DNA of 55,361 bases from an uncultured Bacteroidales bacterium (GCA_946187975.1 CAMHTE010000003.1:1-55361), one strand, 5' to 3'. Shown: positions 13,060 to 27,727, counted from the first letter of the stretch. Program-made: numbers and translations. The notes: a model not told the origin generated them from the letters alone.

Positions 13060-13526
13060 TCGTGGTGGTAAGGTTCTCCCTTCATTATGGTAAAGGCACG
13101 GTACAGCTGTTCCGCGAATACTACACGGACCATCTGGTGCGAGAAAGTCATTTTGCTGAGCGAAAGCTTGTCCGAAGCGGCGGCGTAAACCTCAGGGCTG
13201 AAACCGTATGCCCCGCCAATCACGAAGCACAGGTCCTTGCCCCCGCGGCTGAGGCGCTTCTGCAGTTCTGATGCGAACTCCACGGAACGGAATTCCTTCC
13301 CCCTTTCGTCGAGAAGTATAATCTCTGAACCTGCTGCCTCCTTGAGAATGAGGGCGCCCTCCTTCTCCTTTATCTGCGCTTCAGACAGGGCTCCGACGTT
13401 CTTCAGTTCCGGAATCTCCTTTACCTCGAAACGCACGTAATGAACAATACGGGATGCGTACAGGTCCAGGCCTGCACGCACCCACGGCATATCTGTCTTT
13501 CCAACTACGAGGAGACGAACCATCAT
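13056..13526 (-). CDS. rlmH: 23S rRNA (pseudouridine1915-N3)-methyltransferase RlmH
   Basis: 156 aa; IILLDERGKEFRSVEFA, DLCFVIGGAYGF, FSHQMVRVVFAEQLYRAFTI; ATGA overlap with the kinase gene. Confidence 0.92.
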   Translation of the reverse strand: MMVRLLVVGKTDMPWVRAGLDLYASRIVHYVRFEVKEIPELKNVGALSEAQIKEKEGALILKEAAGSEIILLDERGKEFRSVEFASELQKRLSRGGKDLCFVIGGAYGFSPEVYAAASDKLSLSKMTFSHQMVRVVFAEQLYRAFTIMKGEPYHHE

Positions 13527-13562
13527 AGATGCAAATATAACCCTTAACGTCCTTTTTTCAAA
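13524..13562 (-). promoter_or_regulatory. Predicted Bacteroidota-type promoter of rlmH (TTTG-N19-TATATTTG)
   Basis: Minus strand: TTTTG (plus CAAAA from 13559), 19-nt spacer, TATATTTG (plus CAAATATA 13532-13539), then 5 nt to the ATG at 13526. Confidence 0.7.
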
Positions 13563-13593
13563 ATCAACTGATTATCCAAGGGTTATATTTGCA
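13530..13593. repeat. 16-bp perfect inverted repeat with 32-bp spacer
   Basis: TGCAAATATAACCCTT (13530-13545) and AAGGGTTATATTTGCA (13578-13593) are exact reverse complements. Confidence 0.95.
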
Positions 13594-13614
13594 ACTGTGT
13601 CCGTCACCTCCACC

Positions 13615-13647
13615 GCCCCCTCTCCGGGGGCCCGTCGGCCGAAGGCC
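13615..13647. repeat. GC-rich double-hairpin element
   Basis: GCCCCC-TCTCC-GGGGGC (13615-13631) followed by GGCC-GAA-GGCC (13637-13647) in a 130-bp intergenic gap. Confidence 0.6.
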
Positions 13648-13656
13648 TCCAAAAAA

Positions 13657-15246
13657 CTACTTCAGGCGAGCGAAGTCTTTTTCCATCTCCGAAGCACGGA
13701 GGAGGATATCCAGCGAAGAGAACGCGCAGTTCACCCAGAACGTGCGGTTGCGGTCCTTGCGGGCGTCACGCCATTCCCAGGTTGTAGGAGTGAATCCGTT
13801 CAGAGGATTCTGCATGCGGGTGACGTTGTCGATCAGAGCCTTCGCCTTCGCAAGGCAGAGCAGGTCGCCGGTGACTTTATAAGTGTCGAGCCAGGCATTC
13901 GCCACGTTGCACGCGCTGTTGTCCACGGGCATTTCGTACTTGTACTGCTCATGAACCGCGGGAGCGTAACGGACGTAGAACCCCTCCGAATTCAAGGGAT
14001 ATGCCCAGTGAACGAACTGATCTTCACTTAGACGTATAAGGTCATCCGCATTGCGGAGGTCCTTTTCGGTATGTCCGGGCTTGGTGAGCAGATACGACGC
14101 ATACGGGGCCGCCGTGCAGTTGGTAAGGTTCTGGTAAGGCTTCAGGCCCTTGACGTTCACATCTTCGAACTGTCCGGTCATGTCGAAGGCCTCCACGGCA
14201 ACTTCGTCCATCCAGCGTTCGCCTTTCTGCCTGGGGGCATCGAACTCATCGTAACCGTAGCCGGCAAGCCTGCGGAAATACTTCAGCAGGGGATGCAGCA
14301 TGGCGCTCACGTCGTTCACGGGCTCTCCCGTAATGAAATCCACCTTGATGGGGAGCGAACCATCCTCACGCTGGAGTTTCACATACGTGCGGCCTATGGC
14401 CACTGCACGCTCCAGCCAGGGCTTCTCGCCTGTAAGGTCGTACAGGTCCAGGAACGCGTGTCCGGCGCTGGCGGCCTCGAGGGTCATGGTCTTACCCTTG
14501 TTCCATTCCTTTTTGGAGGCTTCCTTGTCCAGATAATACGTGGGAGGGAAGAAGGCAAGGGGATCGCCTTCAGGGCGGCTCATGTCGATGAGGAACTGGG
14601 CGGCGTTGCGGGCTATCTCCAGCGCCTCGTCCTTACGTGCGGGCAGCAACTTGGCAACCAGACACTCCACCCGGACGGTCGCACCTATTATCTTGCAGGG
14701 ATAGGTGTTGTGCGGATAGCGCATGTCGGGCACGGTAGATTTGCGCCAGGACTGGATTTCAGGCATCGTGTGTACGTACAGCGCGCCTTTCACGGCCGCC
14801 TCGAGGTAGTCGAGGGAAGGGCCGGGATACTCACCGGGGAAGGGATAGTCCCGCATGAACTTCCGTTCACCTACGCGGCTAAGCACTTTCCCCTTCGCAT
14901 CCACGGCATCCACCGTCAATACAACGTCCCCGACGGGAACCTTGTTCCATACGGGCGAAAGGGCGTCAGTTGGCAGTTTGGAACGGAATGAGAGCGCTTC
15001 CCCGTCCTTCGGCGTTACCGTAAACAGGTAGGCCGCCGCCCCCTCCGCCTCCGGGAAATCGAAGGCGGGGGCATAGATGAACTTTTTGGCGAAGCCGTTC
15101 CAGAAAGGATTGCGGCCTTCCGTTCCGGGACGCACGGGCTTAAGGTACTCCTTACCAGCTTGACGGGCGAGCGACTTAGCGGAACGGGCGGGACATGCCG
15201 TTGCTGCAATGCACAGCAGGAGGGCTAATGTCAGGAATTTTTTCAT
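13657..15246 (-). CDS. Secreted alpha/alpha-toroid-like protein, putative glycan-active enzyme of the SusCD locus
   Basis: Signal peptide MKKFLTLALLLCIAATACPA from the Met at 15246, then helical repeat-like sequence (AASAGHAFLDLYDLTGEKPWLERAVAIGRTYVKLQREDGSLP). Directly downstream of susD (13-nt gap). Confidence 0.55.
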   Translation of the reverse strand: MKKFLTLALLLCIAATACPARSAKSLARQAGKEYLKPVRPGTEGRNPFWNGFAKKFIYAPAFDFPEAEGAAAYLFTVTPKDGEALSFRSKLPTDALSPVWNKVPVGDVVLTVDAVDAKGKVLSRVGERKFMRDYPFPGEYPGPSLDYLEAAVKGALYVHTMPEIQSWRKSTVPDMRYPHNTYPCKIIGATVRVECLVAKLLPARKDEALEIARNAAQFLIDMSRPEGDPLAFFPPTYYLDKEASKKEWNKGKTMTLEAASAGHAFLDLYDLTGEKPWLERAVAIGRTYVKLQREDGSLPIKVDFITGEPVNDVSAMLHPLLKYFRRLAGYGYDEFDAPRQKGERWMDEVAVEAFDMTGQFEDVNVKGLKPYQNLTNCTAAPYASYLLTKPGHTEKDLRNADDLIRLSEDQFVHWAYPLNSEGFYVRYAPAVHEQYKYEMPVDNSACNVANAWLDTYKVTGDLLCLAKAKALIDNVTRMQNPLNGFTPTTWEWRDARKDRNRTFWVNCAFSSLDILLRASEMEKDFARLK

Positions 15247-15259
15247 AGTTGCAAAACTA

Positions 15260-17218
15260 CTAATAACCAGGGTTCTGTACAAGTTTGTGATTGATCTTTA
15301 TTTCCGTGATAGGAATAGCATACCAGTAATTACGAGGATAGGTGAATGTCCTGGGCGCTATTTCTTTCAGGGGAACCAGACGGTAGAAGTCCGCGGCGGA
15401 CTGGGGACCGTCCGAAAGCTTGAACGAACTGTCGCTCGAACGGGTATTGAGTTCCATAGGGGTACTGCCAAGATACTCGTGGGCGACTTTCCAACGACGG
15501 TAGTTATCGTATGCGCGGCCTTCCAGGCAGACTTCGGCCGATATTTCGGCACGCAGGGCCTGACGCAAGTTGTCACCGGTGGGGATTCCGCCCGCCAAGG
15601 CCCAGGAATCGCTGAAGGAAGGCAGGCCGGCACGTGTGCGGACCTTATCGATATACATAATGCTGGTGGCATCCAGGCTTCCATTGAGCTCGAAATACGC
15701 CTCTGCATAGTTCAGATAGAGCTCCGCGAGACGCAGTACCGGCATCCTGTAGTTGACGGGCTTGAAATTCTTGTTGGTCTCGTCGAACTGGGTGCTTTCG
15801 GACACATACTTCTGGAAATAGTATCCTGTGGCGGAGTGGTAAAGCGTACGGCTTCCGCAGTAACCATGGAATTCACCGGCACGCGTATGGATGTAGTTCT
15901 TGTCGCTGCCGTTGTAGATAATATTTCCGCGGTCGAACGCTATGGATGCATAGAAACGGGGATCCCTGCCGCGGTGCAGACGTGCCGTAGAATCACCAGG
16001 AGCAATGTCCAGGAGGTGGTTGGCGGCGAAGCCTGCCTTGGTCTTGGGATCGGCCCAGAGCGGCAGTCCATCCTCAGTGAGGAAGGTGCATACCGCCTGC
16101 ATGGTGGGAGTGTTCTGAGGACGGAAAGAATCCACGTCGGTTCCCGTCGCACCGTTCCAGGTACGAGGAACTCCGTAACGCTGCAGATAATAGTTAAAGT
16201 AGCCGTAAGGAGTATCCGAACCGTCATGGAAACAGGACGACACGAGGTACTCGCACTTGTTGCCCTCGTTCGTGGTAGGCTGGATGAAAAGCTTGTAGTA
16301 GTTGTTCCTACCCCTGTCCTTGTCCGGAAGGGCGGCGCTTGCAGGATCAGTCCACAAGTGGTAGCCATTGGTCTCGGCGAAGGTAATGGCATCGCCCAGG
16401 GCATCCAGTGCATCCTGCCATTTGCCGGGATCGTAGGTCTGGGAAATAAGCGGCGTACCGTCGTAGTTCAGGAAATCGGCGAAATCCGTATTTCCATTCA
16501 CGAGGGGACTTGCGGTATATACGAGCACGCATGCCTTATAGGCCTTGGCAGCGACTGAAGTAGCACGCCCCACTTCCTTATCCTGCCTGGTGGCAGGCAG
16601 ACGGTAGGCGGCCTCGTCGAACATGCGACAAACGAATGCCGCGCATTCGTCCCAGGAGGAGCGCTGAACGATGAATTCCGAAGCCGGGGCGTTAATTGAC
16701 ACCTCATGGTCAACTATAACCACGGGGCCGTAATGCTCCATAAGGATCCAGTGCAGCACGCCTATGAGGTAATATGCCTCTCCGGTGTAGCGTATCGCAG
16801 TAGCGGCGTCAAGCCCGGGAACGCTCCCCACATTGTTTATGAAGTTCCACGCATCGCGTATGCCCTTGTAAAGGTTATACTTCTGCGCATTGCTCTTGGT
16901 GGCGGTGGCGGTGGACCAGGCTCCGAAATAGGTTGAGTTGGCACTCTCTTCGCCATGCAGCATACCTTTCCACGTAGCGTGCCGGACGGCATTCTCATAG
17001 AAAGACACTATCTCCCCGCCGAGGAAGGAGTCCGGATAGTAATGGAATCCTATCTGGTAAGGAAGGTATCCGTACACCCTGTTGAGGGTCCTTTCGGCCT
17101 GCATCTGGGAGGAATACATGTCGGAAGTGGTAGCGGTATCCTCCGGAACCACGTCCAGGAAGTCGCAGGAGGCTACTATAAGCGGAATAACCGTCAGGAT
17201 AAGAAATATCTTTTTCAT
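15260..17218 (-). CDS. SusD/RagB family outer-membrane lipoprotein
   Basis: 652 aa; lipobox IVASCDFLDVVPED, RLAELYLNYAEAYFELNG, VRTRAGLP, FYRLVPLKEI. Confidence 0.92.
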   Translation of the reverse strand: MKKIFLILTVIPLIVASCDFLDVVPEDTATTSDMYSSQMQAERTLNRVYGYLPYQIGFHYYPDSFLGGEIVSFYENAVRHATWKGMLHGEESANSTYFGAWSTATATKSNAQKYNLYKGIRDAWNFINNVGSVPGLDAATAIRYTGEAYYLIGVLHWILMEHYGPVVIVDHEVSINAPASEFIVQRSSWDECAAFVCRMFDEAAYRLPATRQDKEVGRATSVAAKAYKACVLVYTASPLVNGNTDFADFLNYDGTPLISQTYDPGKWQDALDALGDAITFAETNGYHLWTDPASAALPDKDRGRNNYYKLFIQPTTNEGNKCEYLVSSCFHDGSDTPYGYFNYYLQRYGVPRTWNGATGTDVDSFRPQNTPTMQAVCTFLTEDGLPLWADPKTKAGFAANHLLDIAPGDSTARLHRGRDPRFYASIAFDRGNIIYNGSDKNYIHTRAGEFHGYCGSRTLYHSATGYYFQKYVSESTQFDETNKNFKPVNYRMPVLRLAELYLNYAEAYFELNGSLDATSIMYIDKVRTRAGLPSFSDSWALAGGIPTGDNLRQALRAEISAEVCLEGRAYDNYRRWKVAHEYLGSTPMELNTRSSDSSFKLSDGPQSAADFYRLVPLKEIAPRTFTYPRNYWYAIPITEIKINHKLVQNPGY

Positions 17219-17230
17219 AACCGTTCAGTT

Positions 17231-20200
17231 TTAGAAGTAAAGTTGAATACCTGCCTGTACGCTCTTTGTGAGCGGGTAGGATACGCCGGCGGTGTGGGCC
17301 AGTTCGGGGTCCCACAGCTTGAAAGGCGAGATAATGAACAGGTTGGTGCCCGTGCAGTAAACGCGGAACTTGTCCTTATACGACCATCCGAGTTCTACGT
17401 TCTTCAGGCGCAGGAAGCGGCCGTCGTAAAGCCAGAAGGTGGACGCAGGAGTATTGTTGGCATTGTATTCCCAGTCCAGACGCGGGTAAGCGGCGTTCGG
17501 GTTGGGATTATCCTCGCTCCAGTGATTGTCGGCCACCCATTGGAACATGTTGAAGCCGCGGTTCGTCTTGCTGACGAAGGGATGTACGGACGCGTGCATG
17601 AGTATCGAAACCTTGGCACGGCCGGCGAAGAAGAAGGAGAAGTCCCATGACCTGTACTTCATGGAGGCACCGAAGCCGTAGTTAATCTCCGGAACGGTAG
17701 GATTGCCTATGTAGGTCATGTCGTTGTCGTCAATGCGGTCATCGCCGTTCATGTCCAGGTACTTGATATCGCCCGGCTTGTACCCTACCTTATAGGTCTG
17801 GACCGGGGACAGGTCTATGTCGTCCTGGTCTTCGAACAGCCCGAGGGCTACGAGACCGTAGGGGGCTTTAACGGAAACCCCGATTTTCGACTGGTACGGA
17901 TAAGGCTGAACCTCAGGTTCGTCGTACTCGGTAATCTCATTGTGCGCATAGGTGAAGGTTCCGCGTACCGAGATAGAGAATTCCCTGTTGAAAATGCGGT
18001 TGTACTCCATGCTGGCATCGAAGCCCCGGTTACGCACTCCGCCTATGTTACCCTTGGGCGAAACGCCTGTGAGTCCGGCTGTGGCCGGGAGCACCTGACG
18101 GGACATGAAGATACCGGAACGGTTTTCCTCGAAGAGGTCCATGATGAGCTTAAGCCTCTTTTTTACCCCTATTTCGAGTCCGAGGTCATGTTTACGGCTG
18201 ATCTCCCAGGTTGCGTCCTCGTTACCCCAAAGGCTAACGGCATTGCCACGTTCGGCCGAGAATCCGTTCTGGCCGGAGCCCTGGACGAAGCGGCTGTTGA
18301 TATTCATGCTGACCGTGGAGATGTACGGGAAACGCTGCGACAGGTAGTCGTTACCGGAAAGGCCGTATGAATAGCGGATCTTCAGCAGGTCCACGGTGTT
18401 CCGAAGCGAATCCCAGAAAGGCTCGTTGGAAATGATCCAGCCGGCGGCCATCGAAGGGAAGAAACCCCAGCGGTGCCCGCGCATGAAGTTCTCGGAACCG
18501 TTGTATCCGAAGTTGCCTTCAAGCACGTAGCGGTTCAGGAGTGTGTAGGAAAGACGTCCGGCAAAGCCCTGTTCGCGGCGCGGCAGGCGGTCGTTGTAGC
18601 TGGACGCCTGATTGTCCACGTGTTCCTTCTGATGATAAAGCAGCACTGCGTTGACGGTATGGGGGCCGAAACTGCGCGCATACTCTATGTTGGACTGGAT
18701 GTTAACCTCGTGGTAGCCGCTCGAGGACGTGCTGGAAGTCATGAATTTGGAGCCTTCCGTTCCCAGCATAGAAAGGGAATGAACCTCTTCCCCAGTACCG
18801 GGATCGATGGTTACTCCGCTGTAGCGATAGAGCCATGGGGCCTTGCGGAAGGTCAGCGTGGCCGCAGTATAGGAGTAGAAGGAAACCTGTCCCCAAAGTT
18901 TGAGGCCCGGGGTAATCATCTTGAGGTCCTGGTCCAGTCGGACGGAAGTGGCCGAATTCTCGGTAAACTGTTTGCGGTATCCTTCGGAGAGGTCCCTGTA
19001 AGGGTTGCACCAGCCGGTGGTTCCGTCCCATTCGTTGGTTCCTCCGAAAATAACGTAGTCGGCATCGGGAATCCAGGATGTGGGATAGGTGGGCGACACG
19101 TTCACAGGGTTTGCCTGAAGGGCTCCGGCAAAGTAGTGAGAGGTGTCGTAATACGGCATGTTCTTGTAGAACAGGATGGTGGTCATCTTGATGGAGGCCT
19201 TGGTGGTATTGGTCAGCCTCGCTGTGACGTTGCTCTGGAACGAGTACTTCCGCGCATTCAGGCTCGTGTCGAACGGCACTTCCGGCGAGTTGCGTATCAT
19301 ACTGTTCTGGTTCGAGAACATGGCGCTAAGGAAGTAATCGACGCGGTTACCGCCACCGCGGATGTTCACGTCCGCACTCTGGGCGGTCGCGTAATCGTTG
19401 AAGAGCAGGTCGTACCAGTTGATGTTGGGATACTCGTAGGAGTTCTCACCAGCCCTGGCCGCGGCAATCTTGTCCGCGGGATAGTAGTCCCAGCCCCCGC
19501 GGGCGCGCATGGCCTCGTTGTAATTCTCCATATAGGTGAGTCCGTCCGCGATTTCGGAAACCTTGGTGAAGGTGTTCAGGGTGGAATTGAAATGCACGTT
19601 TATGGACATTTTGTCCGACACCCGTCCGCTCTTGGTGGTGATTATCATAACACCGTTTGCACCGCGGCTACCGTAAAGGGCCGTAGCGGCCGCATCCTTC
19701 AACACCGCGAAACTCTCGATGGACTCCGGCGAAATGCCGTCCAGCACCGCAGTGTTCACCTCTATGCCGTCCAGAATGTAAAGAGGGGTGGAATTGGAGC
19801 CGAAGGTGGAAATACCGCGGATCCAGAACTTGGAACCGTCCATGCCGGGCTCACCGGAAGACTGGGTCGAAATAACGCCGGCCAGGTTACCCGCGAATGC
19901 CTGCGAAAGGGTAGGCGTGTGCAGGGCCTTGAGCTTGTCCGGATTGATGGTCTCGACTGACGTGACCATGGACTCCTTTTTCTGGGTGGTACCGAAAGCC
20001 ACCACAACGGCCTCTTCCAGTGCCTGGGTAGATTCGTCCAGGAGCACCATACGGAAGTAATTGGCATTGCCGGAAGTGGCAACCGACTTGTCCAGATAAC
20101 CCAGCATGGAGAACGTAATCTCCTTCACTTCGGGGCCGACGGTTATGGAATAATTACCGTCCAGGTCAGTCAGGGTTCCGTTTGTGGTACCAGGCACAAA

Positions 20201-20620
20201 TACCGTTACGCCAACGAGCGGCGTACGGTCTGTAGTGGACACTACGGTACCCGTAAAAGTACGTTTCCCCGCCGGAGCCGCAGATGCTCCTGAAGGTTTG
20301 CGGGAATCATCCTTCTTGTCCTTGTAAAGCACTATCTGGCGGCCTTCGATGCGTGCGGCCATCTGCTGCGAAGCGAGCGCACGGTTCAGCACCAGCAGTA
20401 TGTCCTCGCCCTTGGTTTCCAACGAAACCTTTTGGTCCATCTCCAGTTCGGAGGTGCGATATGCGAAGGAATAACCGCTCTGCTTTTCGATATCCTGCAG
20501 GAAAGCCTTCACGGTGACGTTCTGCCAGTTGCCGGAAACCTTACGGGTCTGAGCGTCCGCAAGCAACGGCAGGACAGACAGGACCACCAGCAACAGGAGC
20601 CGTCTTACTGTTTTGTACAT
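17231..20620 (-). CDS. SusC/RagA family TonB-dependent transporter with N-terminal STN domain
   Basis: 1129 aa; STN region (VSGNWQNVTVKAFLQDIEKQSGYSFAYRTSELEMDQKVSLE), carboxypeptidase-like domain, plug (IRGISTFGSNSTPLYILDGIEV, SRGANGVMIITTK). Confidence 0.93.
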   Translation of the reverse strand: MYKTVRRLLLLVVLSVLPLLADAQTRKVSGNWQNVTVKAFLQDIEKQSGYSFAYRTSELEMDQKVSLETKGEDILLVLNRALASQQMAARIEGRQIVLYKDKKDDSRKPSGASAAPAGKRTFTGTVVSTTDRTPLVGVTVFVPGTTNGTLTDLDGNYSITVGPEVKEITFSMLGYLDKSVATSGNANYFRMVLLDESTQALEEAVVVAFGTTQKKESMVTSVETINPDKLKALHTPTLSQAFAGNLAGVISTQSSGEPGMDGSKFWIRGISTFGSNSTPLYILDGIEVNTAVLDGISPESIESFAVLKDAAATALYGSRGANGVMIITTKSGRVSDKMSINVHFNSTLNTFTKVSEIADGLTYMENYNEAMRARGGWDYYPADKIAAARAGENSYEYPNINWYDLLFNDYATAQSADVNIRGGGNRVDYFLSAMFSNQNSMIRNSPEVPFDTSLNARKYSFQSNVTARLTNTTKASIKMTTILFYKNMPYYDTSHYFAGALQANPVNVSPTYPTSWIPDADYVIFGGTNEWDGTTGWCNPYRDLSEGYRKQFTENSATSVRLDQDLKMITPGLKLWGQVSFYSYTAATLTFRKAPWLYRYSGVTIDPGTGEEVHSLSMLGTEGSKFMTSSTSSSGYHEVNIQSNIEYARSFGPHTVNAVLLYHQKEHVDNQASSYNDRLPRREQGFAGRLSYTLLNRYVLEGNFGYNGSENFMRGHRWGFFPSMAAGWIISNEPFWDSLRNTVDLLKIRYSYGLSGNDYLSQRFPYISTVSMNINSRFVQGSGQNGFSAERGNAVSLWGNEDATWEISRKHDLGLEIGVKKRLKLIMDLFEENRSGIFMSRQVLPATAGLTGVSPKGNIGGVRNRGFDASMEYNRIFNREFSISVRGTFTYAHNEITEYDEPEVQPYPYQSKIGVSVKAPYGLVALGLFEDQDDIDLSPVQTYKVGYKPGDIKYLDMNGDDRIDDNDMTYIGNPTVPEINYGFGASMKYRSWDFSFFFAGRAKVSILMHASVHPFVSKTNRGFNMFQWVADNHWSEDNPNPNAAYPRLDWEYNANNTPASTFWLYDGRFLRLKNVELGWSYKDKFRVYCTGTNLFIISPFKLWDPELAHTAGVSYPLTKSVQAGIQLYF

Positions 20621-20650
20621 AGAGGTATTGTTTGAAATAGTTATTTTGAG

Positions 20651-21631
20651 TTATCGTACGAGCACCACATGCCCGTCATCTATAAAGCGGACGTTACAGT
20701 CGGCGAGGAAAGACACTATGGAGAAAATCTTCTCCTTGGCCTCGTCCCCCACCTTGAGGGTAATGCGTCTGTCCAGATCCACGTCGCCGGCGGTCGTAAC
20801 CTTGACCAGGTACCTGTGTTCGAGGTTTTCCAGCACCTTACCGAGCGGCAGGTCGTCGAACTCCATCACAGGGCGGATCCAGCTTACGTAATCGCCGGTA
20901 TCGACAGTACGGACTGTGCTTCCGCCAAGCATCCTGTCATAAGTCAGCTGTTCGCCAGGCGAAAGGGTTACGGGCGACACGTTCCCGCCTTCGATACGTA
21001 CGGATCCGGACACCAGGGTAATCTGGTCTTCGTTATAAAGGCCGGAATGACGCACGCAGAAGCGCGTACCCAGTACCCTCACGGTCAGGTCGCCGGCAGT
21101 CACGAAGAACGGACGTCCGTCGCTGACCACATCGAAGTAACCCTCACCCTCCAACGTTACACAGCGCTTGGATGAGCTTGTATAGTTACTCTCGTAAGAG
21201 AGGGAACTGCCGTTGTTGAGCCAGACAACAGTACCGTCGGGCAGGGAGAACTCTCCCTTGGAATGGTTGGAGGTGACCATGCAGATGGAGGAAGGCTCCT
21301 TGCCGGACTTGCTGCGCAGCAGGTGCCAGGACAAATCGGTCAGGGCCACAACAATCGCGAAGGCCACGGCCAGCCTGGCAAGGCGTACCGGCATACGGCT
21401 TCCGGTCCGGCTCTTTTCCGTGTGACGGTGCAAAACACTAAGTTTATTGCGCCGGACAAGGGTAGAGTCGGTAATGTCTTCAGCCGACTTTGCTTCCCAC
21501 TGGCGGTAGAGGGCGTCATCTTTGGCGTCCTGGCCGTCAGGCTCCACAAGCCAACTGCCGAAGGCATCGGCTACCTCCTTAGGGTAGTCGCCTGCCATAA
21601 AGCGGTCTATTATATTTTTCTTCATTCCCAT
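20651..21631 (-). CDS. FecR-family anti-sigma factor
   Basis: 326 aa; FSLPDGTVVWLNNGSSLSYESNYTSSSKRCVTLEGEGYFDV, C-terminal DUF4974-like segment; between sigma and susC. Confidence 0.9.
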   Translation of the reverse strand: MGMKKNIIDRFMAGDYPKEVADAFGSWLVEPDGQDAKDDALYRQWEAKSAEDITDSTLVRRNKLSVLHRHTEKSRTGSRMPVRLARLAVAFAIVVALTDLSWHLLRSKSGKEPSSICMVTSNHSKGEFSLPDGTVVWLNNGSSLSYESNYTSSSKRCVTLEGEGYFDVVSDGRPFFVTAGDLTVRVLGTRFCVRHSGLYNEDQITLVSGSVRIEGGNVSPVTLSPGEQLTYDRMLGGSTVRTVDTGDYVSWIRPVMEFDDLPLGKVLENLEHRYLVKVTTAGDVDLDRRITLKVGDEAKEKIFSIVSFLADCNVRFIDDGHVVLVR

Positions 21632-21653
21632 TTCGTGTATATAAGACTGTTTT

Positions 21654-22190
21654 TCAGAACAAGGACCCCAGTTCCCGCAGTTGGGAAAGTGCTTTTCCCA
21701 TGTGATATTCTACGGTTTTGAGGGCTAGACCCGTTTTTTCGGCCACCTCCGCGTTGGAGAGCCCGAAGTGACGGCTGAGGCGGAACACTCTCTGGCGCTG
21801 TTCGGGCATTGCCTCCAGGGTGAGGTTGACGAGCAGGAGCATGTCCCTTACGTCCTCCTCGCGGGAAAGGTCTCCCCCGAACAGTTCCGGAAGATCTTCC
21901 GGCATAATGTTGCTGTCCTTCGGAACTATGCGGTTCCGCATATAGTGGTCGTAGATGGCATGCCTCACCATGGTGAAAAGGTATGCCTTGAAAGAACGGA
22001 CCCCACGCAGCGATTTGCGCCGCTGCCACACCCTCAGGAACACGTCCTGACATATGTCTTCCGACAGGGATTTGTCCTTGAGCAGGGCGGTAGAAAACGA
22101 CTCGACGAGCGGAGCATACTTCAGATAGAAGTAGTCAAAGACCTCGTATGATCCGCCCGCGAGCCGCTGTATGTACTCAGATTCCTGCAC
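21654..22190 (-). CDS. ECF RNA polymerase sigma-70 factor (GTG start)
   Basis: 178 aa; AEDICQDVFLRVW-type region 2 (SEDICQDVFLRVWQRR) and region 4 HTH (LSNAEVAEKTGLALKTVEYHMGKALSQLRE). Codon at 22190-22188 is GTG, preceded in frame by TGA. Confidence 0.9.
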   Translation of the reverse strand: MQESEYIQRLAGGSYEVFDYFYLKYAPLVESFSTALLKDKSLSEDICQDVFLRVWQRRKSLRGVRSFKAYLFTMVRHAIYDHYMRNRIVPKDSNIMPEDLPELFGGDLSREEDVRDMLLLVNLTLEAMPEQRQRVFRLSRHFGLSNAEVAEKTGLALKTVEYHMGKALSQLRELGSLF

Positions 22191-22195
22191 TCAGG

Positions 22196-24613
22196 TTAGT
22201 TTATATCGACAAATTCGTAACTAAAGGCTGCTCCGGAGCCCATGTTGCCCACGAGGTTAACGCCCTTTTCGACGGCGGCTCCGAGGACCTTAGATGCAGA
22301 GGTAACCGTTTCGTGCTTGTCTTCCGCACCGAGGGTAACGCCTCCGTTGGAGCGGAAGGCCCCGAGGAAAGCACCGGCTGTGCATTCTCCGTCACAGCTT
22401 ATCGTGCAGTTCAGGGTATCGCCCTTCCAGGTCTTGGCATACTTGCCGTTAATCGCACCGCACAAACCGCCTACGCGCACACCGCTGTCGGATGTGGTTA
22501 TGGAGATGTTGCCGTTGCTCGCGTTATCGTCAAGGTTCGCCAGAACGAATCCGATCAGGCCTCCTATTTCGCTGAAATAGTTGACGGTTCCAACAACCTT
22601 GGCCTTCGCGTTGGATACCACCACTTCGCCGTCGTTAGTACAGCCGGTAAGGGATCCGTAGAGACCTCCGCACACTCCGCCGATAAACACATAGGATTCG
22701 GTTGTGGATGTAATTTTTCCGGTATTGGAACATCCGGTCACGGTATGGCCATAAGTCTCGTTTCCGGAGCCGAACACGCCGCCTAAATAGCTTGCATTCT
22801 TCTCGGCATGCCATCCGTTCTGCATCGTGAGGGCGCCGCTGTTGGAACAGTTGGAAACGGTAGTGTTACCGGCATTGTAATGGCCAATAATACCTCCGCA
22901 ACGGAGCTGTTGGGAACAGTTGGTTTCCTGCACAAGGCAGTTGGCATCGAAGGTTACCTCCTTGGCATTTGAGCAGCCGCTCACGCTTCCGTTGTTCTGC
23001 CACCCTATGACGCCGCCGGCACGGAACCAGCGGACACGGGACTTGAACAGTACCGGGGTTGAATTATCATCGTTTTTGCAGTCGATGACAGGCACATTGC
23101 ACCATCCAACTACGCCGCCAAGGTTGGCAGAACTTCCGTTCTCGGGATTCATGTCCAGATCAGTCCTGAGTTCGCCGTAGTTGCTGCAACCGGAAAGGAC
23201 TTCTTCCTCAGAATAATCCTTGCCGCTCACTGCGCCCGCGACTCCTCCGAACACGATTTCGTTGATCTTACCCGCTCCCCTTTCATTACTGGTGCCATTG
23301 GCAAAAGTGCCCGCGAGGGTGACGGATCCGCGGTTGATGCAATCCTTCACTGAGAAAGCAGCATAAGCCACGACTCCACCGACGGCCGGACGGGTACAAC
23401 CAGTTTCGCTTTTATCGACCGTATACGACACAGCGCCTTCGTTGGTACAGGAAAGCACGCGACCCTGGAAATAGCCGGCTACGCCGCCTACGTTGCCATA
23501 GGTTCCGCTATCGTTGGTGCCGATGGAAAAACTAACCGAACCAGTGTTACTGCAACCGCGGATGTTACCGATATTGGCAACGTCTCCGTCAAATTTGGTA
23601 ACAGTGCTGGTGCCTAAAACACCTCCCAGGAAGGTTTTTGCCGGAGTGCCCGTGTAAGCCAGGACAATCTTTCCGGTATTGTGGCAGTCCAAAATAAGGT
23701 CGGCATCCACGGCCGGAGCGGCATCGCAATAACCAACTACGCCTCCTATCACATGCTCGTCGGCGGCGGAAGTCATGGAGAGGGTGATGTCGCCCTTGTT
23801 GGTGCAGCCGCTAATGGTGCCCTGAAGGCGTCCCACGATGGCTCCGAGCCTGGCGGTAGCGGTGAAGGCTTCGGTACGGGTAATGGGCGCGTTGTTGACG
23901 CAGCCGCTTACAACTCCTCCGGCAAGAACGTGTCCGGCGACGAAGGCTATATCGTTACCTTCACCTGCCTCGAGTTTGCAGGAAGCGTCTACGATCAGGT
24001 CTTTCACCGTTCCCTCGAGGGTGGTGAAGAGAGGACCCGTAGCACTGTAGTTTTTGAGAGCCTTGCCGTTACCGTTGAAAACACCGGCGAACGAAGCGGC
24101 AGGTGTTACGGTAAGACCAGTAAGGTCAAGGTCAGCGCCCAGGGTAACCACATCGGTAGCCGCGCAGTCGGCGGCGTATACGTCCAGCCACGAAACGAGC
24201 AGAGCTGCATCGTTGATGGTAAGAGGATAGCTTATCGTCCCTGACGACTCAGTGGCCACATTCGCTATTTCGGACCATTCCGAACGGTTCTTGGAAGAAG
24301 CTATCGCCTGCACGCGCACCTTATATTGAGTTTCGGGTTCGAGGCCGGTAATGCGATAGGAAAGTTCAGTAGTCCTTCCGGCCATGGAGAACTCCGCGTC
24401 GGAAGCAAGGCAGTAATCTACCTGATACTGCCTGGCTCCCTCCACAGCTCCCCATGTAACGGTAAGGCTGGTGGTAGTGGCCTCCACTTGTATTACGGGG
24501 GCCGTCAGATTTACGTCTTTATTCTCCGCCTTTGAAGCGGGGTCTTCCTCCTTGCCGCAGGCCGCGAGGGAAATCGCGGCCAGTGCGGAAAAGATCAAAT
24601 TACGGAATTTCAT
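22196..24613 (-). CDS. FN3 plus GLUG-like repeat surface lipoprotein (paralogue A)
   Basis: 805 aa; lipobox ALAAISLAACGKEED, fibronectin type III-like segment (APVIQVEATTTSLTVTWGAVEGARQYQVDY), then repeated GGVVGYxxxxVxxCxNxGxI units. Confidence 0.8.
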   Translation of the reverse strand: MKFRNLIFSALAAISLAACGKEEDPASKAENKDVNLTAPVIQVEATTTSLTVTWGAVEGARQYQVDYCLASDAEFSMAGRTTELSYRITGLEPETQYKVRVQAIASSKNRSEWSEIANVATESSGTISYPLTINDAALLVSWLDVYAADCAATDVVTLGADLDLTGLTVTPAASFAGVFNGNGKALKNYSATGPLFTTLEGTVKDLIVDASCKLEAGEGNDIAFVAGHVLAGGVVSGCVNNAPITRTEAFTATARLGAIVGRLQGTISGCTNKGDITLSMTSAADEHVIGGVVGYCDAAPAVDADLILDCHNTGKIVLAYTGTPAKTFLGGVLGTSTVTKFDGDVANIGNIRGCSNTGSVSFSIGTNDSGTYGNVGGVAGYFQGRVLSCTNEGAVSYTVDKSETGCTRPAVGGVVAYAAFSVKDCINRGSVTLAGTFANGTSNERGAGKINEIVFGGVAGAVSGKDYSEEEVLSGCSNYGELRTDLDMNPENGSSANLGGVVGWCNVPVIDCKNDDNSTPVLFKSRVRWFRAGGVIGWQNNGSVSGCSNAKEVTFDANCLVQETNCSQQLRCGGIIGHYNAGNTTVSNCSNSGALTMQNGWHAEKNASYLGGVFGSGNETYGHTVTGCSNTGKITSTTESYVFIGGVCGGLYGSLTGCTNDGEVVVSNAKAKVVGTVNYFSEIGGLIGFVLANLDDNASNGNISITTSDSGVRVGGLCGAINGKYAKTWKGDTLNCTISCDGECTAGAFLGAFRSNGGVTLGAEDKHETVTSASKVLGAAVEKGVNLVGNMGSGAAFSYEFVDIN

Positions 24614-24627
24614 ATTATATCTCGCAA

Positions 24628-27444
24628 TTAAAGGATATCAAGATAAGTGTCGACCACGCTTCCGGGGCCTGTACCAAAGTCTCCAACGATGTTGGAGCCA
24701 GTTACAACCGCTCCTTTGAAGCGGGCGGATGCAGCCACTGTTTCGTGGCTGTCTTCCGTGCCGAGGGTCACTGTTCCGGAACTACGGAATGCACCTAGGA
24801 TAGCTCCGCCGATGCAGGCGCCGTCGCAACTGACCGTGCAGCTGATGGTGTCACCTTTCCAGGTCTTGCTGTAATTGTTCTGTCCACCGACAAGACCTCC
24901 TACGCGGACGGACTCATCACAACTGGTAAGCGAAACGTTGCCGTTGCTCTCATTGCCGGTGAGATCTGCCACGGACAGACCGACAAGGCCACCTACTTCG
25001 CTGAAATAGTTGACGGTCCCTACGACCTTGGCTTTTGCATTGGAAATGACCACAGCGCCATCATTCACGCAGTTGGTAAGAGTTCCATACATTACTCCGC
25101 AGAGGCCACCAACCAACAGATAGGAGGCGGAGGTGGAAGTAATGGTTCCGGTGTTGTGGCAGCCGTGAACGTCGTTGGAGTTACGGGCGGAGTCTCCCAG
25201 TATGCCACCCAAGCAACTCTCTTTACTTTCATTGTGCCAACCGTTCTGGAGGGTAAGAGCACCGCTGTTGGAACAGTTCTCGATTACGCCGTTATAGGGA
25301 GCAAAATAACCAACTATACCACCGCAACGGGCCTGTACAGAGCATTTATTGGGAGATCCCGCAGTATTGTTGAGGTCGAAGGTAATATCCTTTGCGTTGG
25401 AACTCTCGTGAACATACCCGGAAGCAACGTATCCCACTATTCCTCCTGCACGAGGATATCCTGCGCGCGTCTTGATATATACGGCGGAAGGAGTGGCCTC
25501 GTTGGCATTATGGCAGTTGCGGATATGAATGTTGCAGTAGCCTACTATTCCACCAATGTTTAATCCTCCGGAAGCGCCATCAGCGCCTCTGACGTCCGTA
25601 GTAAGTGCTCCGTAATTGTAGCATCCGGAAACTTCCTCACTTGCCACAAAGGCCTTGCTTCCGACTCCACCCGCGATGCCGCCAAACAGCATTTCATGGC
25701 TGGCACCGGCGCCACGGTCGTTGGCAGTTGCAGAATAGAATCCACCTTCAAGGGTGACAGATCCACGGTTGATGCAGTTCTTGACGGAGAACGCCGAATA
25801 ACCCACCACACCACCTATTGCAGGACGGCGACAGACACGATTCTCGACTTTTTCCGCTACATAAGATACGGCACCTTCGTTTGTGCAGGAAAGCACGCGG
25901 CCCTCAAAATAACCTGCTACGCCTCCAACGTTGGCGTGCGTTCCGCCACCGTTGGTTCCTACAGAATAGCTTACATCACCGGTGTTTGTGCAGCTGCGGA
26001 TGTTGCCTATGTTGGCAGGGGCCGAACTAAACCCGGTAGCGGTGCTGGTGCCAAGGACTCCTCCGAGGAAGGTCTTGGCAGGTGTACCCGAGTAGCTGAG
26101 GGTAATGTCACCGGTGTTGTGGCAGTCGGAAATCTTGTCCACATCGGTTTCGGCAGCGGCATCGCAATAACCTACCACGCCGCCTACCACATGCTCGTTG
26201 GCGGCAGAAGCCATTGTGAGGGTGATGTTACCGTTGTTGGTGCAGCCGCTCATGGTGCCCTGGAGGCGTCCTACGATGGCTCCGACCTTAGCAGTTGAAG
26301 TAAAGTCGACAGTACGGGTAATAGGAGCGTCGTTGACACAACCGGTAACGCTGCCTCCGGCAAGCACATGCCCGACGATGAAGGCAATGTCGCCTCCGTC
26401 ACCTGCAGCAAGACTGGAAGTGGATGCAATGCTTATGTTCTTGACGGTGCCGGACACTTCAGTGAAAAGTGGTGAGGCAGCGGCCCAGTTGGCTATGGTA
26501 TGGTTCTGTCCGTCCAATTCTCCGGCAAATCCGGAAGCACTCTCGAAGGACTCGGTGGCCGAGGCAAAGTCGATATCAGCGGTGATTACGAATTTGTCGG
26601 ACGCAGAGAACGTGTGGGCGATTTTAAGGAAGCGGATCAGTTCGTCGGCATTCTTAATGGTGTTGGCATTGGCCGGATTGATGAGCAGGAGAGAACTGCG
26701 GTCGATGGTGTAGGCCGATTTACTGGAGAAATGCTTGATAACATTGGAACTGCCGTCCATTACATCCACCGTAAAGGCGTAGGTACCGGTAGGCAGAGGC
26801 ATCCAGAACTCCCTATTGAGAGTGCCAGCAGCGAAGTTGATGGTAACGGACTTTTCGGACGCAGTAAGCGTGGAAGCCGTGGCAATCTGCGCGTCGGCGT
26901 CGGTGTAATCAGCCACCACGAAGGAACCATTGAGCTTGGTATCAGCAGCCACCACGATGCTTTCCGCCGTGGAAGGAAGGTTGCGAAGGTCGAGCTTGAG
27001 CACGCCTGCAAGGTTTCTGAAAGTAATGCTGGATCCGGACACGCTACCTACGAGGGCGGCGTTGTTCTGGGTGCCGTCCAGGGTGTAGGCTGCGGGGAGG
27101 GTCACAGTGAGGGCGTTACCGGCCAGTGAGGGGGCGAGGGCGGCGGGATGCACGGCCATAACGGCGGTGCCACCGTCCAGGTCACCGGTGAAATCCGCCT
27201 TTGCGGAACCTTCGCTGGTGGTGGTGAATTCCTGCCATGCGCTCTTGCTGGTGTAAACCTTAATGGCGTCGCCTGTGTTCCAGGTCATTACGCCTGCGTC
27301 GGTCACCGAAGTACGCATGCTGAGGACTTCGGCGGTAAGGACATCGGGGCCGTTGGATTCAGGCCCGGCTGGCAGCTCGTTTTTAGTACATGCTGCAAAG
27401 GAGAGTGCCGCAACGGCGGCTGCGATAAGCAAATACTGTTTCAT
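24628..27444 (-). CDS. Fimbrillin-like N-terminus plus GLUG-like repeat surface lipoprotein (paralogue B)
   Basis: 938 aa; lipobox ALSFAACTKNELPA, fimbrillin-like N-terminal region (WNTGDAIKVYTS...LLLINPANAN), then the same repeat series as paralogue A. Confidence 0.8.
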   Translation of the reverse strand: MKQYLLIAAAVAALSFAACTKNELPAGPESNGPDVLTAEVLSMRTSVTDAGVMTWNTGDAIKVYTSKSAWQEFTTTSEGSAKADFTGDLDGGTAVMAVHPAALAPSLAGNALTVTLPAAYTLDGTQNNAALVGSVSGSSITFRNLAGVLKLDLRNLPSTAESIVVAADTKLNGSFVVADYTDADAQIATASTLTASEKSVTINFAAGTLNREFWMPLPTGTYAFTVDVMDGSSNVIKHFSSKSAYTIDRSSLLLINPANANTIKNADELIRFLKIAHTFSASDKFVITADIDFASATESFESASGFAGELDGQNHTIANWAAASPLFTEVSGTVKNISIASTSSLAAGDGGDIAFIVGHVLAGGSVTGCVNDAPITRTVDFTSTAKVGAIVGRLQGTMSGCTNNGNITLTMASAANEHVVGGVVGYCDAAAETDVDKISDCHNTGDITLSYSGTPAKTFLGGVLGTSTATGFSSAPANIGNIRSCTNTGDVSYSVGTNGGGTHANVGGVAGYFEGRVLSCTNEGAVSYVAEKVENRVCRRPAIGGVVGYSAFSVKNCINRGSVTLEGGFYSATANDRGAGASHEMLFGGIAGGVGSKAFVASEEVSGCYNYGALTTDVRGADGASGGLNIGGIVGYCNIHIRNCHNANEATPSAVYIKTRAGYPRAGGIVGYVASGYVHESSNAKDITFDLNNTAGSPNKCSVQARCGGIVGYFAPYNGVIENCSNSGALTLQNGWHNESKESCLGGILGDSARNSNDVHGCHNTGTITSTSASYLLVGGLCGVMYGTLTNCVNDGAVVISNAKAKVVGTVNYFSEVGGLVGLSVADLTGNESNGNVSLTSCDESVRVGGLVGGQNNYSKTWKGDTISCTVSCDGACIGGAILGAFRSSGTVTLGTEDSHETVAASARFKGAVVTGSNIVGDFGTGPGSVVDTYLDIL

Positions 27445-27458
27445 GGCATCTTCCTTTT

Positions 27459-27608
27459 TTAATCGAGTTCTCCCACTTCATCGAGTTCTCCCACTTCGGG
27501 AATAAGCTCTTCCAGATTGCCGGACACAGCCTGAAGGAATCCGCTTCCGGCAGCGAGGCGGATTACACCCGCGAAGGGCGCTTCGTAATTAGTGTTTTTC
27601 TTTTTCAT
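27459..27608 (-). CDS. 49-aa small protein, first cistron of the surface-lipoprotein/SusCD run
   Basis: Hand translation: MKKKNTNYEAPFAGVIRLAAGSGFLQAVSGNLEELIPEVGELDEVGELD*. Below the ORF-track cutoff; ends 14 nt before paralogue B. Confidence 0.65.
   Translation of the reverse strand: MKKKNTNYEAPFAGVIRLAAGSGFLQAVSGNLEELIPEVGELDEVGELD
27462..27497. repeat. Perfect 18-bp tandem duplication inside the 49-aa ORF
   Basis: ATCGAGTTCTCCCACTTC x2 on plus strand, encoding EVGELD-EVGELD on minus. Confidence 0.95.
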
Positions 27609-27727
27609 ATAAAGAACAATAGTTATTAGCCGTATTATTCTTATTAAAGACTCTATCTATCCCTTTTTACCCTTGCCTTTATTTTGTAAAAATAATGGCG
27701 CAGAATTTGCAAAAGAACCGGTCCGGT

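Follow-up and report, generated by a model that had tools for sequence, protein, structure and literature searches.

Eight consecutive minus-strand genes of an uncultured, gut-type Bacteroidales bacterium probably constitute a single transcription unit, a movable sigma-FecR-SusCD operon for nutrient uptake and sensing at the surface, with one ECF-type promoter at 27645-27673 that is most likely read by the operon's own sigma factor. On our best reading of the comparative evidence, what is new within this known kind of ECF-sigma/FecR/SusCD signaling is the pairing of a conserved promoter-like element with a regulator gene that lies downstream of a surface lipoprotein. The genes occupy positions 13657-27608 of the window, our term for the whole 55,361-nucleotide stretch analyzed; the draft genome to which it belongs, as contig C3, totals 1.68 Mb in 103 contigs and is 82% complete.

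Reading along the minus strand, the run opens with an ORF for a 49-residue micropeptide (27459-27608), followed by two lipoproteins with GLUG repeats: lipoprotein B (938 aa, 24628-27444), which has a fimbrillin-like N-terminal domain ahead of its GLUG solenoid, and lipoprotein A (805 aa, 22196-24613), which carries an FN3 domain and a GLUG β-solenoid. These are followed by a FecI-type ECF sigma factor (178 aa, 21654-22190) that begins 5 nt past the lipoprotein A stop, a FecR-type anti-sigma factor (20651-21631) with one hydrophobic segment from residue 87, a SusC/RagA TonB-dependent receptor with an STN domain (17231-20620), a SusD lipoprotein (15260-17218), and a last gene (13657-15246) whose product is modeled with an α/α-barrel fold. 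The successive gaps measure 14, 14, 5, 22, 30, 12, and 13 nt. All eight ORFs listed in an earlier note on this DNA are present, with the FecR-SusC gap, given there as a range, fixed at 30 nt, and family searches bear out its gene identities (sigma-70 regions 2 and 4, FecR, SusC, SusD, and Glug in both lipoproteins). Three details needed correction: the sigma start codon is GTG; the last gene, described as encoding a secreted protein, encodes a predicted lipoprotein starting at ATG 15246; and the two GLUG lipoproteins differ in their domains, with FN3 in A and a fimbrillin-like N-terminal domain in B.

The signaling components are recognizable at differing strengths. The sigma factor matches PF04542 (57.4 bits) and PF08281 (44.0 bits) and contains regions 2 and 4 only, as expected of the ECF class; its score against TIGR02985, 124.1, falls just under the cut-off of 126.4. 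FecR (PF04773, 50.6 bits) combines a single membrane segment with a periplasmic FecR domain and is related to the solved anti-sigma factor 4m0n. SusC matches TIGR04056 with 866 bits, and the adjoining SusD matches PF07980 with 146.3 bits. The STN match of SusC is weak (PF07660, 22.3 bits, below the cut-off of 28.4), and we searched 400 congeners for the nearest SusC relatives and read their surroundings, scoring STN as present or absent by the point at which each match to the window's SusC starts. A fecR gene lies upstream of 20 of the 21 STN-bearing relatives and of none of the nine STN-less ones (30 nearest relatives; Fisher p = 7e-7), the one STN-bearing relative with no FecR detected being that of G410:C8. 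Because STN tracks FecR among these relatives, we take the SusC encoded here to be of the signaling type, and the proposal of a trans-envelope ECF-sigma/FecR/STN-SusC locus is upheld.

The order GLUG lipoprotein, ECF sigma, FecR, STN-SusC, SusD, and last-gene product is conserved in all seven congeners with a contig that extends to the GLUG gene (G252, G442, G258, G410, G450, G023, and G027). The first five of these have a single GLUG lipoprotein, sigma, FecR, SusC, SusD, and a homologue of the last gene in that order, with SusC split over two frames in G450; the G023 operon ends in SusD, its last gene being cut off by the contig end, and the G027 contig begins inside the GLUG gene. In two further congeners, G273 and G394, the operon is visible from FecR onward. 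Because six of the eight genes recur in identical order, the arrangement goes beyond chance. In every relative that reaches this junction, the GLUG stop and the sigma start are -1 to +5 nt apart, mostly as TAATG. The G023 GLUG gene (L044:4160-6509) is frameshifted relative to its orthologues, which is either real or an assembly error.

Protein identity across the unit ranges from 53 to 76%, with lipoprotein A the lowest at 53% and the other genes at 59 to 76%. Among the relatives read, neither the micropeptide nor a second GLUG gene occurs in any copy of this operon, so we dropped both micropeptide and lipoprotein B as parts of the ancestral locus. The description of the run as one locus is thus supported for the core from lipoprotein A to the last gene but not for the two genes in front, an addition to the operon seen in the window genome only; the linkage of a GLUG lipoprotein to the sigma-SusCD block is kept in every relative whose contig extends that far. 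Over the GLUG region, identity is 57% between A and B, 56% between A and the G252 protein, and 49% between B and the G252 protein, from which B resembles a copied A solenoid joined to another N-terminal domain.

Both lipoproteins exceed the Glug (PF07581) gathering score of 20.5, with 37.3 and 48.3 bits. The FN3 domain belongs to A only, and B has a different N-terminal domain that we call only fimbrillin-like because it gives no match to the Pfam fimbrillin model, a relative of the domain in L126 scoring 17.5 against a cut-off of 27. A structure model of lipoprotein A (three sequences, pLDDT 72.9) shows the FN3 domain followed by a β-solenoid that weakly resembles the IgA1-protease structures 7uvk and 3n6z; the closest known counterparts are the IgA1-protease-like solenoid stalks of GLUG-repeat proteins. 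In contrast to those stalks, no protease domain was found here, and an N-terminal FN3 (A) or fimbrillin-like (B) domain sits on a lipoprotein anchor. Our literature search on GLUG proteins returned nothing relevant.

To place the position of the sigma gene in context, we took a census of 58 distinct sigma-FecR pairs in the genus; in 18 of them, another gene on the same strand ends within 40 nt of sigma. A tight position within a run, which had been considered unusual, is therefore not unique in itself; what sets this orthologous group apart is that it alone places a GLUG gene directly before sigma. The genes just before sigma in the 18 cases are varied: two encode SusD, Pfam assigns others to an FAD oxidoreductase, a GH3 enzyme, a GDSL lipase, and a metallophosphoesterase, and there are housekeeping genes, judged by inspection. 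A GLUG-like gene stands two places before sigma in G044, and G032 has both a micropeptide and a GLUG gene between FecR and SusC. At L150 and L181, sigma-FecR follows SusD rather than preceding SusC.

The candidate ECF-sigma promoter, AGGGTAAAAAGGGATAGATAGAGTCTTTA (27645-27673, minus strand), lies 36 nt before the first ATG of the run. Its conserved blocks, AGGG(T/A)AA-N15-GTCN(T/A)TA, are shared with equal spacing by the window genome (G000), G252, G410, G258, and G023, and stand 36 to 41 nt before the first ATG, whichever gene comes first. Between the window and G252 both blocks are identical (18 of 18 positions), an agreement reached by none of 400 simulated pairs. G442 differs from the element at one position, and the G450 assembly has Ns there. 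Within the window the element occurs once, against 0.05 expected with up to one mismatch. Across 15 whole genomes, exact matches fall at the five operon sites just named and at one other place: contig C15 of the window's own genome carries a paralogue of the last gene, unlinked to the operon (L213:6209-7915), with the element 36 nt ahead of its start, so that the element is restricted to two places in that genome; the searched genomes that lack the operon contain no exact match. As the element was derived from the operon upstream regions, the C15 match is its sole independent test, at one site. It cannot have been copied along with the gene, because the operon copy comes last and is separated from SusD by only 13 nt. 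One-mismatch matches are no commoner than with a reversed control, and a loose form of the element turns up ahead of other sigma genes at close to the chance rate (5 vs 2.0), so we claim no wider regulon. From these observations we regard the element as most likely the promoter that the operon's own sigma factor recognizes.

A strong independent promoter and terminator between lipoprotein A and sigma would speak against a single transcript, as the earlier note pointed out, and we detected no internal promoter in the run. A scan for the Bacteroidota housekeeping type found none inside it and gave candidates before rlmH and efp, the rlmH promoter (13532-13563, minus strand), which lies outside the run, serving as positive control. 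A scan for E. coli-type promoters was rejected; it did no better than chance, and the top-scoring site directly adjoins the start codon of lipoprotein A. The promoter scans cover two known promoter types.

The surroundings of the run indicate how it came to lie where it does. We read 20 congeners, selected for having efp and rlmH on one contig and, in most cases, near each other, and in 16 of them DUF4783 and rlmH are direct head-to-head neighbors, 18 to 163 bp apart by tblastn. In the window about 14.1 kb separates DUF4783/efp from rlmH, and both halves of the shared DUF4783-rlmH intergenic region persist at the two ends. Given that adjacency and the split intergenic region, the run is most simply one inserted unit, approximately 13545-27685 with ends good to about ±20 nt. 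Direct repeats were found at neither end. At the downstream end, a 22-nt inverted repeat (91%) at 13524-13599 contains the rlmH promoter element AAGGGTTATATTTGCA.

Operon sites differ among relatives. Besides DUF4783/rlmH, the operon is found after uvrC-acpP in G023, between a 192-aa gene and pyrH in G252 (gene names by inspection), and next to tRNA-Ser in G442, G410, and G450; a tRNA-Ser gene is a common integration site. The uvrC-acpP site in G047 and G048 holds only a homologue of the last gene. At L255, L257, and L258 the orthologous operon lies beside a tRNA-Ser(cga) gene (about 5.6 kb, 5.6 kb, and 2.3 kb). At L249:10055-10696, a shortened last-gene homologue with an internal deletion sits beside frr/pyrH, with the full operon about 8.5 kb away in the same genome.

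Taken together with the known parts, this architecture suggests how the locus might operate. A ligand would be bound at the surface by a complex of SusCD, perhaps with the GLUG lipoproteins, and the STN domain of SusC would relay the signal to FecR, causing it to release sigma. Sigma would then transcribe the whole operon, surface lipoproteins first and SusCD with the sugar-active-type enzyme last, and would raise its own level by positive feedback, since the operon contains the sigma gene. It would also transcribe the unlinked enzyme-gene paralogue on contig C15.

The GLUG lipoproteins may be co-receptors or capture ligand, as the earlier note proposed; what the sequence shows of them is an architecture for co-expression. 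We give an even chance to the reading that the operon is one unit in which they are mere output, co-regulated adhesins or surface binders with no part in signaling. GLUG proteins are widespread in the genus away from sigma/FecR neighbors, the position of lipoprotein A as the least conserved gene is what a variable surface binder would lead one to expect, and the census, with GLUG directly before sigma in this group only, implies that signaling does not generally need it. Yet the GLUG gene is strictly kept beside sigma in every relative that reaches it, its stop codon overlapping or nearly overlapping the sigma start, and GLUG-like proteins turn up near sigma/FecR in the two other arrangements of G044 and G032. 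At the other extreme, the locus could be a commitment switch, with GLUG an obligate part of the sensor, sigma translation coupled to it, autoactivation leading to an all-or-none uptake state, and the micropeptide an addition that modulates the fimbrillin-like lipoprotein or helps to assemble it. We hold this to be unlikely; were it true, the regulator would be made only when the surface sensor is made.

The junction gaps of 5 to 30 nt leave no intergenic room for a further start site, but a sigma-FecR-SusCD promoter could in principle be placed inside the lipoprotein A coding sequence, leaving the upstream element to the lipoproteins only or to another regulator. Many sigma-FecR-SusC blocks of the genus have no upstream lipoprotein, the scans were limited to two promoter types, and the match of element to sigma is itself indirect. 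However, the run contains no further copy of the element and no housekeeping-type promoter, and the second genomic copy precedes a paralogue of the operon's last gene, which makes an internal promoter improbable in our judgment. Quite unlikely, finally, is that the genes are linked by joint horizontal transfer of a cassette rather than by functional coupling. The unit does appear at several sites, one of them beside tRNA-Ser, with clean empty sites elsewhere; against this, order, spacing, and upstream element have been kept while the proteins diverged to 53 to 76% identity, and no direct repeats were found at the ends.

The preferred reading, a single operon driven by its own sigma factor, can be set beside two known systems. 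For the trans-envelope glycan loci of B. thetaiotaomicron, a SusC to anti-sigma to ECF-sigma signaling model has been described, and its ECF-sigma/FecR/STN-SusC loci show the same order of sigma, FecR, and STN-SusC, then SusD and a sugar-active-type protein (PMC3878776). The locus described here differs from them: its sigma gene follows surface lipoprotein genes, the stop and start codons overlapping in relatives; its one conserved candidate sigma promoter is found ahead of the lipoprotein instead of ahead of sigma or susC; and the element has a second site, at an unlinked enzyme paralogue. The same kinds of signaling part make up the E. coli FecI-FecR-FecA ferric citrate system, which consists of a sigma factor, an anti-sigma factor, and an outer-membrane TonB receptor with a periplasmic signaling domain. 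The Fec regulator genes form an operon of their own that is not known to be activated by the Fec sigma factor, whereas here the sigma gene lies inside the operon that sigma probably drives.

Bacteroidota have many ECF sigma/anti-sigma pairs tied to SusCD, and the promoters that these read are mostly unknown. Predicting ECF-controlled promoters was called a challenging task in B. thetaiotaomicron comparative genomics (PMC3878776), and the motif sought for SigW-1 in a later comparative-genomics study was not significant (PMC12596196). In the present case the candidate promoter is narrowed to a 29-base stretch. It comes with a sigma factor of its own, a second predicted target, and a clear prediction of autoactivation through the surface lipoproteins, which makes the wiring question directly testable. 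This short and specific prediction is the main value of the locus, a rare example of wiring in which a switch protein is encoded behind surface proteins and probably activates the single start site of the whole set.

The last gene is a 541-codon ORF with a 529-aa product from ATG 15246. Checked as the possible CAZyme-family member of a polysaccharide utilization locus, it scores 19.7 bits against GH127, below the cut-off of 24.9, and it has weak isomerase similarity. We modeled it from 12 sequences, its own and those of eleven homologues in Bacteroidales MAGs; the model has a mean pLDDT of 74.6 and shows an α/α-barrel like that of GH76, GH88, and sugar epimerases. Among its best matches to solved structures are GH76, unsaturated glucuronyl hydrolase, and sugar 2-epimerases, at 9 to 15% identity and a TM by target of up to about 0.6. 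The modeled fold points to a likely sugar-active enzyme.

The micropeptide provides a second lead, as it belongs to a family with no significant match in Pfam or NCBIfam; a literature search on short peptides before fimbrillins also found nothing relevant. Members are about 40 to 54 aa long, share the pattern Y..P...G.L..S..., and are encoded immediately ahead of lipoproteins whose N-terminal domain is fimbrillin-like (27459-27608 in the window, and L058, L059, L060, L061, L065, L069-L073, L260, and L271). An order-wide profile search returned only the window's own copy at E≤0.001, the profile being short and the family divergent. A search of 12,733 small ORFs with a profile built solely from the 12 peptides first seen recovered 13 further ones at E<0.1. 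Each of these ends -4 to +19 nt from a lipoprotein start, 11 of them before the fimbrillin-like N-terminal class, and 29 of all 12,733 small ORFs are so placed before fimbrillin-like-domain lipoproteins. This placement ties the micropeptide to lipoprotein B and not to the sigma locus. With an iterated profile, a peptide precedes 19 of 33 fimbrillin-like-domain lipoproteins and 2 of 268 others, counts that include the seed peptides and come from loci chosen mostly for a GLUG or FecR gene, which means that the frequency does not apply genome-wide.
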